Assembly (NCBI RefSeq): GCF_029024465.1
Contig: NZ_CP118950.1
Location: 1,116,001 to 1,180,000 of the forward strand
Direction: 5' to 3'
Length of the DNA stretch: 64,000 bases
From: Lactococcus garvieae subsp. garvieae
Lineage (GTDB): Bacteria > Bacillota > Bacilli > Lactobacillales > Streptococcaceae
In this document: positions 22,435-32,439 of the stretch, piece by piece
Layout of the letters: the number at the start of each line of letters is the position of its first letter
Position numbering within the stretch: the first letter of the stretch is position 1
Translations under genes and position numbers: made by a program
Notes under the pieces: generated by a model
What the model saw: only the letters and a program-made list of their open reading frames with translations
The model's database searches: none
What the model was told of the DNA's origin: nothing

Positions 22435-22869
22435 CTATTTTTTAACCACAATGACATTGCAAGGTGCGTGATTAATAACATAATTTGTGGTTGAGCCTAC
22501 CAAAAGGCGGTCAAACATATCTGTTCCCGTTGCACCAATGACGATTAAGTCAATATTTTTATCTTCTTCTTCCGCAAAGTTAACAATTCTTAGTTTCGGT
22601 TTGCCTGCGATTTCATAAGTTTCATATTCAACTTGTTCGCGGATAATATCTTTGCAGTTTGCTAAAATATCTTGCGCAAGTTGATCCAATCCTGGTGTTT
22701 CTACAATACCTTTATGAACAGCACCGTAATATTTATTGATATCTTTTACTGTCAGAACATGTAGTTTTGCATGATTGAGACGAGCAATGCGTATCGCTTC
22801 ATCTACTGCTTTGTAAGATTGTTCAGATCCGTCCACAGGAACCAAAATATTTTTATAATAGTCAGTCAT
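22435..22869 (-). CDS. uspA: Universal stress protein (UspA family), copy 1
   Basis: A 144-residue single Usp domain. It has the N-terminal NILVPVDGS (ATP-binding Asp) and the C-terminal GATG-x2-x9-GSTTNYV nucleotide-binding motif, so it is of the ATP-binding type. The ATG used has AGGAGG 7 nt upstream; the longer frame adds two residues without support. Together with copies at 23115-23540 and 46420-46845 it forms a set of three paralogues. Function: stress survival, exact role unknown. Confidence 0.92.
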   Translation of the reverse strand: MTDYYKNILVPVDGSEQSYKAVDEAIRIARLNHAKLHVLTVKDINKYYGAVHKGIVETPGLDQLAQDILANCKDIIREQVEYETYEIAGKPKLRIVNFAEEEDKNIDLIVIGATGTDMFDRLLVGSTTNYVINHAPCNVIVVKK

Positions 22870-23114
22870 AATCATTCCTCCTTTTATGTCTTTCTCTACT
22901 TCTATTGTACATTTTCTTTCCCTAAAAACGAAATCATTTCCTTAAAAGCAACGCTCAACCGAAAAAGGAGTAAAAGAAATACGCCCACAATAGTGAGCGC
23001 ATTGAAGTGATAAGATAAACATCTTACTGGAATACTTGTATTATATCGCCTTTGTCTTAAGCAATACTAAAATTAAAGCTTTTAAAGAAGTCAATGACAA
23101 GCTACTTTTTGTGT

Positions 23115-23540
23115 CTATTTAACGACCAAGACATTGCATGGTGCATGATTTACAACAAACTGTGTGGTTGAACCTAACATGAGTTTATTAATCATCCCTG
23201 CCCCAGTTGCGCCAATAACAATCAAATCCATCTTCTTGTCTCCGGCAAATTGGACAATCATATGTTTGGGCGCACCAACAATTTCATAACTGTCATAAGG
23301 TACTTCATCACCGATAATCTCCGCTGCTTTCTTCAAAATATCTTGTGCCATCATATCAATTTCAGGATTTTCGACGATACCAAAACCGGTCATTCCGTAA
23401 TGATGTTCCATATCCTTAACAGTCAAAACATGAAGTTTTGCATTGTTTCTCTTTGCCAAAGTAATTGCCTCATGTACGGCATTATAAGATTGATCTGAAC
23501 CATCTAGTGCAACTAAAATATTGTGATATTGTTTTTCCAT
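23115..23540 (-). CDS. uspA: Universal stress protein (UspA family), copy 2
   Basis: A 141-residue Usp domain with NILVALDGS and GATGAGMINKLMLGSTTQFV as ATP-binding signatures. It is closely related to copy 1 (shared VHEAIT/VDEAIR, LHVLTVKD and VNHAPCNV segments), which lies about 250 bp downstream on the same strand, so this is probably a tandem duplication. GGAGG lies 8 nt before the ATG. Confidence 0.92.
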   Translation of the reverse strand: MEKQYHNILVALDGSDQSYNAVHEAITLAKRNNAKLHVLTVKDMEHHYGMTGFGIVENPEIDMMAQDILKKAAEIIGDEVPYDSYEIVGAPKHMIVQFAGDKKMDLIVIGATGAGMINKLMLGSTTQFVVNHAPCNVLVVK

Positions 23541-23660: not shown

Positions 23661-23689
23661 TTGTACTTTTAAAGAGAATGTGTTACAAT
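23661..23689 (+). promoter_or_regulatory. Promoter of HicB-like micro-gene A
   Basis: TTGTAC, a 17-bp spacer and TACAAT. The predicted start near 23696 gives a leader of about 65 nt. Confidence 0.7.
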
Positions 23690-23697
23690 AATTATGG

Positions 23698-23760
23698 AAT
23701 TTCGTTATGTACGTTATAGTGTCCTTTCGTCGATATCATATAGAGAAAGGAGAATGCATT
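23698..23760 (+). promoter_or_regulatory. Conserved leader with RBS-sequestering hairpin, copy A
   Basis: The first 32 nt match the leader of the second micro-gene (28620-28651) at 30 positions, including a tandem 9-mer of the form TTCGTTATR. TCCTTTC (23722-23728) can pair with GAAAGGA (23745-23751), which contains the ribosome binding site. In copy B the pairing is kept with one G-U pair although the loop differs in length and sequence. This suggests control of translation by the leader. Confidence 0.6.
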
Positions 23761-23916
23761 ATGACATTCACTAACAAAAACAAAAATTTCAAGTATACTG
23801 TATCTTTGGATACTTCAAAAGATATTTTTAAAGTATTTTTGGCTAATGATCCAGCGGTTTATGGGCTTGGTCGTACCATCGAAGAAGCAATGCACAACTT
23901 GGAAGAATTAGCATAA
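23761..23916 (+). CDS. HicB-like micro-protein A
   Basis: A 51-residue soluble protein, MTFTNKNKNFKYTVSLDTS..., ending GLGRTIEEAMHNLEELA. The pattern of a beta strand, a short turn, then G-x-T-x-EEA-x-x-N-x-E resembles the partial RNase-H fold of HicB antitoxins, but it is short, has no DNA-binding tail and no adjacent HicA toxin. A paralogue with the same first codons is at 28678-28836. AAAGGAG lies 8 nt before the ATG. An in-frame ATG at 23707 is not conserved in the paralogue and has no ribosome site. Function unknown. Confidence 0.8.
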   Translation: MTFTNKNKNFKYTVSLDTSKDIFKVFLANDPAVYGLGRTIEEAMHNLEELA

Positions 23917-23951
23917 GGAGCTCATAGCAATGGATGAATATTCCTCGTGAT

Positions 23952-23989
23952 GGTATCTACTTCACACGTTTAAGTAGATGCCTTTTTTT
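23952..23989 (+). terminator. Terminator of HicB-like micro-gene A
   Basis: GGTATCTACTT/AAGTAGATGCC stem (one G-U pair), 9-nt loop and TTTTTTT. Confidence 0.85.
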
Positions 23990-28583: not shown

Positions 28584-28611
28584 TTGTGTTTTAAGTTTAT
28601 TGTGCTACAAT
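28584..28611 (+). promoter_or_regulatory. Promoter of HicB-like micro-gene B
   Basis: TTGTGT, 16-bp spacer, TACAAT; the -10 is identical to that of copy A. It begins 12 bp after the yagU stop. Confidence 0.65.
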
Positions 28612-28619
28612 AAGAATAG

Positions 28620-28677
28620 AATTTCGTTATATTCGTTATAGTGTCCTTTCGAAGAGAAACAAGAAAGGGGAATGCAT
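28620..28677 (+). promoter_or_regulatory. Conserved leader with RBS-sequestering hairpin, copy B
   Basis: Same leader as at 23698. TCCTTTC (28644-28650) pairs with GAAAGGG (28663-28669), which holds the ribosome site, across a 12-nt loop. The upstream tandem 9-mer TTCGTTATA is perfect here. Confidence 0.6.
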
Positions 28678-28841: not shown

Positions 28842-28869
28842 AGCGCCTATTTGAATGGGCGCTTTTTTG
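28842..28869 (+). terminator. Terminator of HicB-like micro-gene B
   Basis: AGCGCC/GGCGCT stem with a 10-nt loop and TTTTTT. Confidence 0.8.
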
Positions 28870-28997: not shown

Positions 28998-29678
28998 TTA
29001 TTTATTGTTTTTATGTGATGGATATACTTCACATAATGCTTGGTATTCAGCCGTAGAAATTTCATTTTTAATAGGTTTGATCAAACCGTCATTTTCCATC
29101 ATTTTTAATTTTTGATAAATAGTATTGTATTTACCAGTACTACCACCTACTACAAATGCCCCATTATAGAGATACCCAGTTGTACCTCCGCCTGCGTTAT
29201 CTTTTCTTACTGTCAATTTAATCATTTCTTCTTCCTCCTCTGGTTGTGGGTCTGGATCTGGTTTTGGAGTAGAATCTCCTAAACGTAATCCGTATGCAAA
29301 CGACAAGCCAATATATTCTGACCATGCAAAACTATCTCGTGTTACATATTGTCGTCCATTCATATTTTGTTGAACAAGTGTTGGGCGTGTAGGTTCTTCG
29401 ACGATTGCAACGTGACCGTAACTTCCATCCGAAAAGACTACTATATCTCCCCGTTGGAGTTCTCCATGGTTTGTAATACGTTGAACTTTTACTCCTGCAT
29501 TTTGCAAAGCAGCAATATTACTTGCACTCCCAGTATCAATAGCATTACCGCCCATATGAACACCATATGCAGTTTGAACAACATAGACAATCAAGTCCAT
29601 ACATTGACCACCGTACATGCCATCCATATCTACAGTTTGGCCAAGCTTAGCTGATGCTAATGCCAATAAGTCTGCCAT
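28998..29678 (-). CDS. CHAP-domain endolysin (prophage remnant)
   Basis: A 226-residue peptidoglycan hydrolase without signal peptide. The N-terminal CHAP domain has the catalytic Cys26 (GGQCMDL) and His89 (YGHVAIVEE). A proline-aspartate linker (about 136-150) leads to a C-terminal domain (MIKLTVRKDN ... SGYLYNGAFVVGG-like text) seen in lactococcal and lactobacillal phage lysins. AGGAGG lies 6 nt before the ATG. The frame is intact although neighbouring phage genes are broken. It points away from the integrase, as a lysin at the phage's far end would. Confidence 0.85.
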   Translation of the reverse strand: MADLLALASAKLGQTVDMDGMYGGQCMDLIVYVVQTAYGVHMGGNAIDTGSASNIAALQNAGVKVQRITNHGELQRGDIVVFSDGSYGHVAIVEEPTRPTLVQQNMNGRQYVTRDSFAWSEYIGLSFAYGLRLGDSTPKPDPDPQPEEEEEMIKLTVRKDNAGGGTTGYLYNGAFVVGGSTGKYNTIYQKLKMMENDGLIKPIKNEISTAEYQALCEVYPSHKNNK

Positions 29679-31439: not shown

Positions 31440-32439
31440 TTATAAAAAGAAAAATGGGACTACTTCTTACAAATTTAAAGCGTACATCGAAAAAAAGAAT
31501 GTTAAGAGACAATATGCCGAAAAAAGTGGTTTCAAAACGAAAGCGGAAGCTCGAACAGCCTTACATTGTATTCAAGAAGAGATTAATAATCCTGTGCCTA
31601 AAAGTGAAAGGACATTTAGAGAACTTTAGAATGAATGGCTTCTTGTTTATGAAAAAGAAGTCCAAAATAGCACATAGTATAAAACAACTCGTGCTTTCGA
31701 TAAACGAATTTTGCCAGTTTTTGAAAAGCTTAAGCATGCTCGTAAGCTTTTTGAAATGGGTTCGTAAAGTATTTAACCATGCTGCCCTTTTAGGCTACAT
31801 ACAAGCTCATCCTGCAGCTCCTGTGACATCACAAAGTATCAAGAAAAAGTTGATGAAAAAAAGATTTTTTATGATACTGATGAGCTAAAAATTCATGAAC
31901 TTTGTAGAAGAAACAAATGATATTAAAAAATAGCACTTTTCAGATTGTCAGCTTTCACTGGAATAAGGAAAGGTGAACTTCTAGCTCTTGAATGGAATGA
32001 TTATAGAAAGGGAACGCTCGACATAAACAAAGTCGTTTCTCATTCTCCAATAGGTTATGAAACTTTACCTCCTAAAGCAAATTCAAATAGATTATTAAGT
32101 CTAGATATAAAAACTTGCCAGATACTTGATAAGTTGCATAAAGAATTTCCAACCTCTCCTCGTATTTTTGAATCAGAAAAAGGAGGAATGCTTTCTCTTT
32201 CGAAACCAAGGAAGTGGTTATTGGAAATTACAAAAAATAAAAAGATTGAACCTATTCGAATACACGCCTTCCGTCATACTCATGCAAGTTTATTATTTGA
32301 ATCAGGCATGAGTTTAAAGCAAGTTCAATATATATTAGGACATTCTGACTTAAAAACTACTATGAACGTTGATACTCAAATAACTGAATATGCCAAAGAT
32401 AATATTGGGGATAAATTCTCCGAGTACATTGATTTTTAA
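31440..32439 (+). pseudogene. Degenerate phage integrase (tyrosine recombinase)
   Basis: N-terminal integrase text (KNGTTSYKFKAYI, FKTKAEARTAL) is followed by in-frame TAG codons at 31627 and 31675 where related proteins have other residues, then by frameshifts. VFNHAALLGYIQAHP follows in another frame. From about 31945 the catalytic domain is open to a stop: TGIRKGEL keeps the first Arg and HAFRHTHASL the His-x-x-Arg, but the catalytic Tyr position reads NVDTQITEY, with Asp in place of Tyr. The integrase is dead. It ends about 150 bp from the 3' end of ssrA, a common phage integration site. Confidence 0.85.

Follow-up and report, generated by a model that had tools for sequence, protein, structure and literature searches.

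Two short genes in the 64,000-nt stretch of Lactococcus garvieae subsp. garvieae DNA analyzed here (the window) raise the question of why a solitary HicB-fold peptide should each time be preceded by the same leader RNA, one able to pair with the ribosome-binding site of its own gene. Our answer, to which we assign a probability of roughly 60%, is that the leader acts as a gene-specific translational repressor, opened by a factor in trans. What the analysis shows is that the leader is conserved, exclusively linked to one gene family, and complementary to the ribosome site, that the first codons are biased, that the product has a HicB-class fold, and that a micro-ORF downstream of the gene is conserved. 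The masking of the ribosome site is a structure prediction; the repression, the opening factor, and a role for the micro-ORF are inferences.

The initial annotation described a promoter, a leader of about 65 nt, and a 51-codon gene recurring about 4.9 kb away. Both copies are indeed present (Table 1), the second with a gene encoding 52 amino acids (aa). The first parts of the leaders (AATTTCG..CCTTTCG) agree at 30 of 32 bases, as had been counted, and the tandem TTCGTTATR 9-mer attributed to both is exact in copy B, whereas copy A reads TTCGTTATG TACGTTATA. With up to three mismatches allowed, a 29-nt leader pattern matched the window only at copies A and B and was absent from 100 shuffles. 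The reported pairing of TCCTTTC with the ribosome site was likewise reproduced in both copies: CCTTTC of copy A (23723-23728) is complementary to GAAAGG (23745-23750), with a seventh pair that is U-A in A and U-G in B. This last difference had been read as a covariation-type signal; it is one-sided (U-A to U-G) and is therefore not covariation, of which two copies carry none. An in-frame upstream extension of the copy A gene (a 69-aa ORF from 23707) was rejected: its start is missing from the homologues, and the stretch that it would add is leader. The copy A promoter was not among the calls of a strict consensus promoter scan, nor was the copy A terminator called by a terminator scan, the limit of which its loop exceeds. 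Two tandem universal-stress-protein-like genes (window positions 22435-22875 and 23115-23540) are divergent from copy A, and endolysin-like and integrase genes (28998-29678 and 31945-32439), probably a prophage remnant, adjoin copy B.

Table 1. Features of the two leader-bearing loci, in window coordinates.
Feature	Position	Strand	Details
Copy A promoter	23661-23689	+	-35 TTGTAC 23661-23666, 17-nt spacer, extended -10 TGnTACAAT with TACAAT 23684-23689; read from the sequence
Copy A leader, 65 nt	23696-23760	+	Likely start G23696; 5' motif GGAATTTCGTTAT 23696-23708; covariance model R1, E 8.8e-14
Copy A GTTATAGTGT	23713-23722	+	Predicted partner GCATTATGAC 23756-23765, spanning the start codon
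Copy A anti-Shine-Dalgarno strand of P3, CCTTTC	23723-23728	+	Paired in 39/39 A3 sequences; P3 in MFE of 91/96
Copy A ribosome-binding site GAAAGGAG, 3' strand of P3	23745-23752	+	Sequence, alignment, and fold
Copy A orphan HicB-fold gene, 51 aa	23761-23916	+	Stop codon 23914-23916
Copy A micro-ORF Shine-Dalgarno, AAGGAG	23915-23920	+	Overlaps the gene stop codon
Copy A micro-ORF ATGGATGAATATTCCTCGTGA, MDEYSS*	23930-23950	+	6 codons
Copy A intrinsic terminator	23952-23989	+	Stem GGTATCTACTT/AAGTAGATGCC, then T7; -13.7 kcal/mol when folded
Copy B promoter	28584-28611	+	-35 TTGTGT, 16-nt spacer, -10 TACAAT 28606-28611; identified by inspection
Copy B leader, 60 nt	28618-28677	+	CCTTTC 28645-28650 pairs with GAAAGG 28663-28668; covariance model R1, E 2.3e-12
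Copy B paralogue gene, 52 aa	28678-28836	+	No downstream micro-ORF
Copy B intrinsic terminator	28842-28868	+	

The leader is not peculiar to this genome. Of the 18 Lactococcus genomes, 15 encode the family protein (15 of 16 once completeness of at least 90% and contamination of no more than 5% are required), as do 127 of 395 Lactobacillales genomes; it also occurs on Enterococcus and Latilactobacillus plasmids and in Lactococcus prophages. None of the matches listed in the 395-genome search came from the sister genus within this family, and in a 300-genome sample of the class every match to the protein fell within the same order. A covariance model (R1) covering the leader and the first codons detected the leader in 15 of the 18 Lactococcus genomes and, across 19 genera, in 77 of the 395 Lactobacillales genomes, and every match lay at a family gene. 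A pattern restricted to the leader itself occurred at 62 places in 61 genomes, 61 of them directly 5' of a family gene, so the leader goes with a single gene family and does not mark a regulon. The single match away from such a gene (G295, with minimal spacing) is probably due to chance, since the reversed pattern, used as the control, also gave four matches.

Family members without the leader exist elsewhere. Leaderless homologues of Lactobacillaceae type (L154, L158, L168, and L132) have cre-like boxes upstream, e.g., ATGAAAACGTTTCAT, which were spotted by eye and suggest carbon catabolite control. In a second paralogue group (L133, L151, L155, L144, and L167) the leader is another one, the strong 5' hairpin of which (e.g., GUGUAUUC..GAAUACAC) leaves the ribosome site uncovered. 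In Lactococcus prophage loci (L173 and similar), a short-leader copy lies on the opposite strand under its own promoter, flanked by an Alt-like late activator and by replication genes; it is a moron-like gene.

The anatomy of the transcript is regular across the family. A -10 box stands 7 to 9 nt upstream of the first base of the leader in 74 of 84 loci (with the TG extension in 68 of the 84), so that transcription most likely starts at the leader's first G and the transcript begins 5'-GGAAUUUCGUUAU. The transcript proposed here would include GGAAUUUCG, i.e., its start would not lie downstream of this segment. From 5' to 3', the leader consists of the 5' motif, a variable hairpin (P2), CCUUUCG, a variable loop, and GAAAGGAGAAUG, followed by the gene start AUGACAUUCnnUAAC. 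The 13-nt 5' motif is almost letter-for-letter constant over 19 genera, and its GGAAUUUCGUUAU is probably unpaired as well as conserved according to the fold models. P2, by contrast, varies in both strands (CAAC/GUUG, GAACC/GGUUC, GACU/AGUC, and others) and is entirely absent from the short leader form of the prophage copies. Constraint at the RNA level runs from the leader into the gene, where codons 2, 3, and 5 have a strong synonymous bias: codon 2 is ACA in 81 loci, TTC outnumbers TTT at codon 3 by 71 to 19 (45 to 147 further along the same genes), and AAC outnumbers AAT at codon 5 by 74 to 17 (126 to 190 further along). A fold that reaches into the coding region had not been part of the initial annotation.

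The predicted fold is built around the helix P3 (CCUUUC/GAAAGG), which is paired in every cell of the 39-row alignment A3 and keeps at least five of its six pairs in 40 of 41 representatives. Minimum-free-energy (MFE) structures contain P3 in 91 of 96 homologues, with a mean folding z of -1.86 and a Shine-Dalgarno pairing probability of 0.82; the earlier proposal of a conserved cis element able to mask the ribosome site is thus upheld by the models. How the start codon is accommodated differs among copies. In copy A a longer hairpin is predicted, GUUAUAGUGU with GCAUUAUGAC, in which AUG is paired with a probability of at least 0.96 at 37°C, while the predicted fold of copy B leaves AUG mostly open. 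For E. faecium, L. cremoris, and others the prediction is a four-helix junction (P1, P2, P3, and P4) in which P1 joins GUUAU to the AUAAC of codons 4 and 5 and P4 (GAAUG/CAUUC) presents the AUG, open, in its hairpin loop. The 5' GUUAU has two fitting and mutually exclusive partners, this AUAAC and the start-codon AUGAC, and the alternative may constitute a two-state switch.

Not every part of this structure is equally well supported. Exchanging leaders and gene starts among the 41 representatives weakened the duplex between them (z 5.0), and exchanging P2 strands showed the native match to be better (z 5.3), both by a statistic that ignores relatedness. Against a null simulated along the tree, whole-region stability and the P2 hairpin exceeded 100 of 100 simulations; the P3 duplex (11/100) and the leader-by-gene-start duplex (9/100) did not go beyond this null. 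No single base pair was significant in a tree-based covariation null because the Shine-Dalgarno helix hardly varies: it is nearly invariant over the 96 homologues and changes mainly via G-U pairs, both strands differing together in only a few (L112 and the Latilactobacillus-like L056, each CCUUC/GAAGG). Covariation is therefore not claimed for P1 or P3. Overall, the structure as a whole is well supported and P2 is backed by covariation; for P3 the support comes from complementarity that does not vary and from a few paired differences, and the helices P1 and P4 are suggestions.

The mechanism that we propose would start from a short transcript, often made beside stress genes, with its translation start held in a conserved RNA fold. 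The mRNA would fold from its first nucleotide to codon 5 or 6, CCUUUC covering the Shine-Dalgarno sequence through P3 and the start codon being either paired directly (copy A) or enclosed in a hairpin loop of the four-helix junction (Enterococcus and L. cremoris). With the Shine-Dalgarno covered and the start codon within the fold, ribosomes would initiate poorly until a trans-acting factor opened it. That this factor would most likely be a protein is a guess; the simplest guess, because the leader precedes one gene family only, would be the HicB-fold product itself, closing a feedback loop, or else an RNA chaperone of the cold-shock type. In most copies, the terminating ribosome would then re-initiate at once on a micro-ORF of 6 to 11 codons ending at the foot of the terminator. 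Several observations count against this mechanism: the P3 and leader-by-gene-start duplexes lie within the tree-based null, the predicted fold leaves the AUG open in the four-helix form and mostly open in copy B, and some family members have no such leader.

Several other readings of the leader have to be weighed against a translational repressor opened in trans. The fold could be a fixed dampener that sets a low, constant rate of translation and answers to no signal, as its high predicted stability at all temperatures would allow; an extended -10 promoter combined with a weak start would also hold output low and even. The near constancy of the 13-nt 5' motif across the genera nevertheless suggests recognition by something specific, and we consider a signal-free dampener rather unlikely.

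A thermosensor had been among the original suggestions: known RNA thermometers are built with an anti-Shine-Dalgarno hairpin beside the start codon, and here warming would melt P3 and release the ribosome site. The genes neighboring the family are mixed but include stress genes, Usp being the commonest (12 of 93 scanned) and two encoding cold-shock proteins, which also speaks for temperature control. In silico, however, the sequences tested kept P3 83 to 95% formed at 60°C, and the 5' motif and P2 would be superfluous for a zipper. With masking predicted to hold even at that temperature, a simple thermometer is distinctly unlikely. We think a dual-function small RNA about equally improbable. 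Here CCUUUCG and the 5' motif would act in trans on the Shine-Dalgarno sequences of other mRNAs, in keeping with a short, terminated transcript, a C/U-rich anti-Shine-Dalgarno-like motif, and a conserved motif at the 5' end. Against this, the predicted cis pairing of CCUUUC has an average probability of 0.94, and the codon bias assigns the coding start to the fold.

A metabolite-binding leader, also raised originally, would account for a conserved and probably unpaired GGAAUUUCGUUAU, a helix junction, and masking of the ribosome-binding site. Riboswitch aptamers are usually common to several functionally related genes. This leader is instead tied to one family (61 of 62 pattern matches), free of transport or metabolic genes, and has a short conserved core; the prophage short form lacks P2 altogether. 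Exclusive linkage to one gene family makes self-control or a fixed dampener a better explanation than a metabolite switch, and we hold a riboswitch to be very unlikely.

The product of the gene bears on what might open the leader. AlphaFold confidently predicts a beta-beta-beta-alpha fold (mean pLDDT 86.6), and the best six PDB matches in Foldseek were all HicB (probability 0.98 to 1.00, TM-score 0.63 to 0.65, but E 0.05 to 0.4). The likeness to the HicB antitoxins (PDB 6g1c, 6g1n, and 6hpb) is one of a common core, with Foldseek probabilities of 0.95 to 1.00, query TM-scores of 0.61 to 0.65, and 21 to 30% identity; the family protein differs in being only 51 aa long and in having no C-terminal DNA-binding domain, HicA, or sequence-model match. 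Searches with the Pfam and NCBIfam libraries, HicB models included, gave no match, the protein falling below the cut-off, and a PDB sequence search, set aside, returned mainly designed repeat proteins. The prophage copies are members of PHROG 37441 (E 7.7e-22), which has no assigned function and no description of a leader or micro-ORF. HicB has been described as a derived RNase H fold that mostly does not bind DNA on its own (PMC2701414). A decayed HicAB toxin-antitoxin pair, as the HicB fold might imply, is extremely unlikely, as no HicA was found in the whole genome by a search that was positive in 10 of 14 control genomes, the Pfam HicB models do not match, and there is no room for a DNA-binding domain. 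The structural models and the HicA search agree with the initial annotation that the product is an orphan HicB-fold peptide; we do not regard it as half of a toxin-antitoxin pair.

The micro-ORF between stop codon and terminator, absent from the initial annotation, adds a second possible level of control. Right at the gene stop, TAAGGAG or TAGGAG provides the Shine-Dalgarno of a 6- to 11-codon ORF, the stop codon of which falls at the foot of the terminator stem. This arrangement was present in 63 of 81 leader-bearing loci (1.1 in shuffles) and in 29 of 60 leaderless homologues (0.4 in shuffles). Among other genes only 6 of 651 were followed by it, and neither copy B nor the prophage short forms have it. 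The peptides (MGEYPSQ and MGEYPKH in other Lactococcus; MNDCSSSH, MDDSRSSL, MEDSSYS, and MSDSSSNTI elsewhere) are polar, S, T, C, N, Y, D, and E making up 71% of residues in frame and 17 to 23% out of frame. Purifying selection on these residues was not found (synonymous fraction 0.22, expected 0.21). A sequence that is polar yet otherwise unconstrained suggests that the act of translating the micro-ORF matters more than its peptide. The mccA gene of microcin C, functional with about 7 codons, is a precedent for so short a gene (PMC6495379), albeit one set apart by the absence of any modifying enzyme seen beside the micro-ORF and of purifying selection on the micro-ORF's residues. The terminator stems of the family are alike in Lactococcus and Enterococcus (GCAYCTACT..AGTAGRTGC, e.g., L020, L022, and L043), which is unusual for a terminator.

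A fuller version of the proposal would be an uncatalogued three-part unit in Lactobacillales in which the HicB-fold product, a free HicB fold turned into an RNA-binding feedback regulator, opens or closes a start-site fold made of the 5' end and the first codons, and in which translation of the coupled micro-ORF at the terminator foot decides what becomes of the 3' end of the transcript; this combination is speculative and, as a whole, unlikely. If the translational repressor opened in trans is right, then a gene that almost every complete Lactococcus genome sampled has kept, as have many enterococci and relatives, is under a translational control element unlisted in the RNA and protein family libraries used, accompanied by a recurrent micro-ORF that is too small to be picked up by gene finders. 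Such an element would also give the toxin-free HicB fold a testable role and provide a model for the control of initiation through the first codons.

The earlier remark that no described element of this kind was known is in line with Rfam release 15 (cspA included), which gave no match at the leaders at the gathering threshold, and the literature searched did not contain the leader or protein strings. Permissive E-values yielded only matches that we discarded, namely, chance ones in the window and the neighboring csp leader in E. faecium.

Among known systems, fourU, ROSE, and zipper thermometers have an anti-Shine-Dalgarno strand that pairs with the Shine-Dalgarno sequence just upstream of the start codon, as does the present leader, which differs in being predicted closed at 60°C, in its conserved 5'-terminal motif, in a fold extending into codons 2 to 6, and in having no Rfam match. 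The cspA thermoregulator (RF01766) is a structured leader with a fold that includes the coding start. This it shares with our element, and a csp gene with an RF01766-like leader adjoins the E. faecium copy; the present leader is unmatched by that model, differs in sequence, and is much shorter. In the autogenous leaders of ribosomal proteins, one leader per gene family is the layout expected of self-control, and the same layout is seen here with no ribosomal gene involved. Lacto-int, a 2010 candidate motif from Lactobacillales and phages without an Rfam accession, is from the same taxa and, judged by its table row, may or may not be the same element (PMC2864571). Masking of a ribosome-binding site is thus a known kind of control, while the leader family, the use of the first codons, the tie to an orphan HicB-fold protein, and the coupled micro-ORF appear new, Lacto-int having been compared through its table row. 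Taken together, the predicted leader fold and the micro-ORF point to a form of translational control that has not been catalogued.
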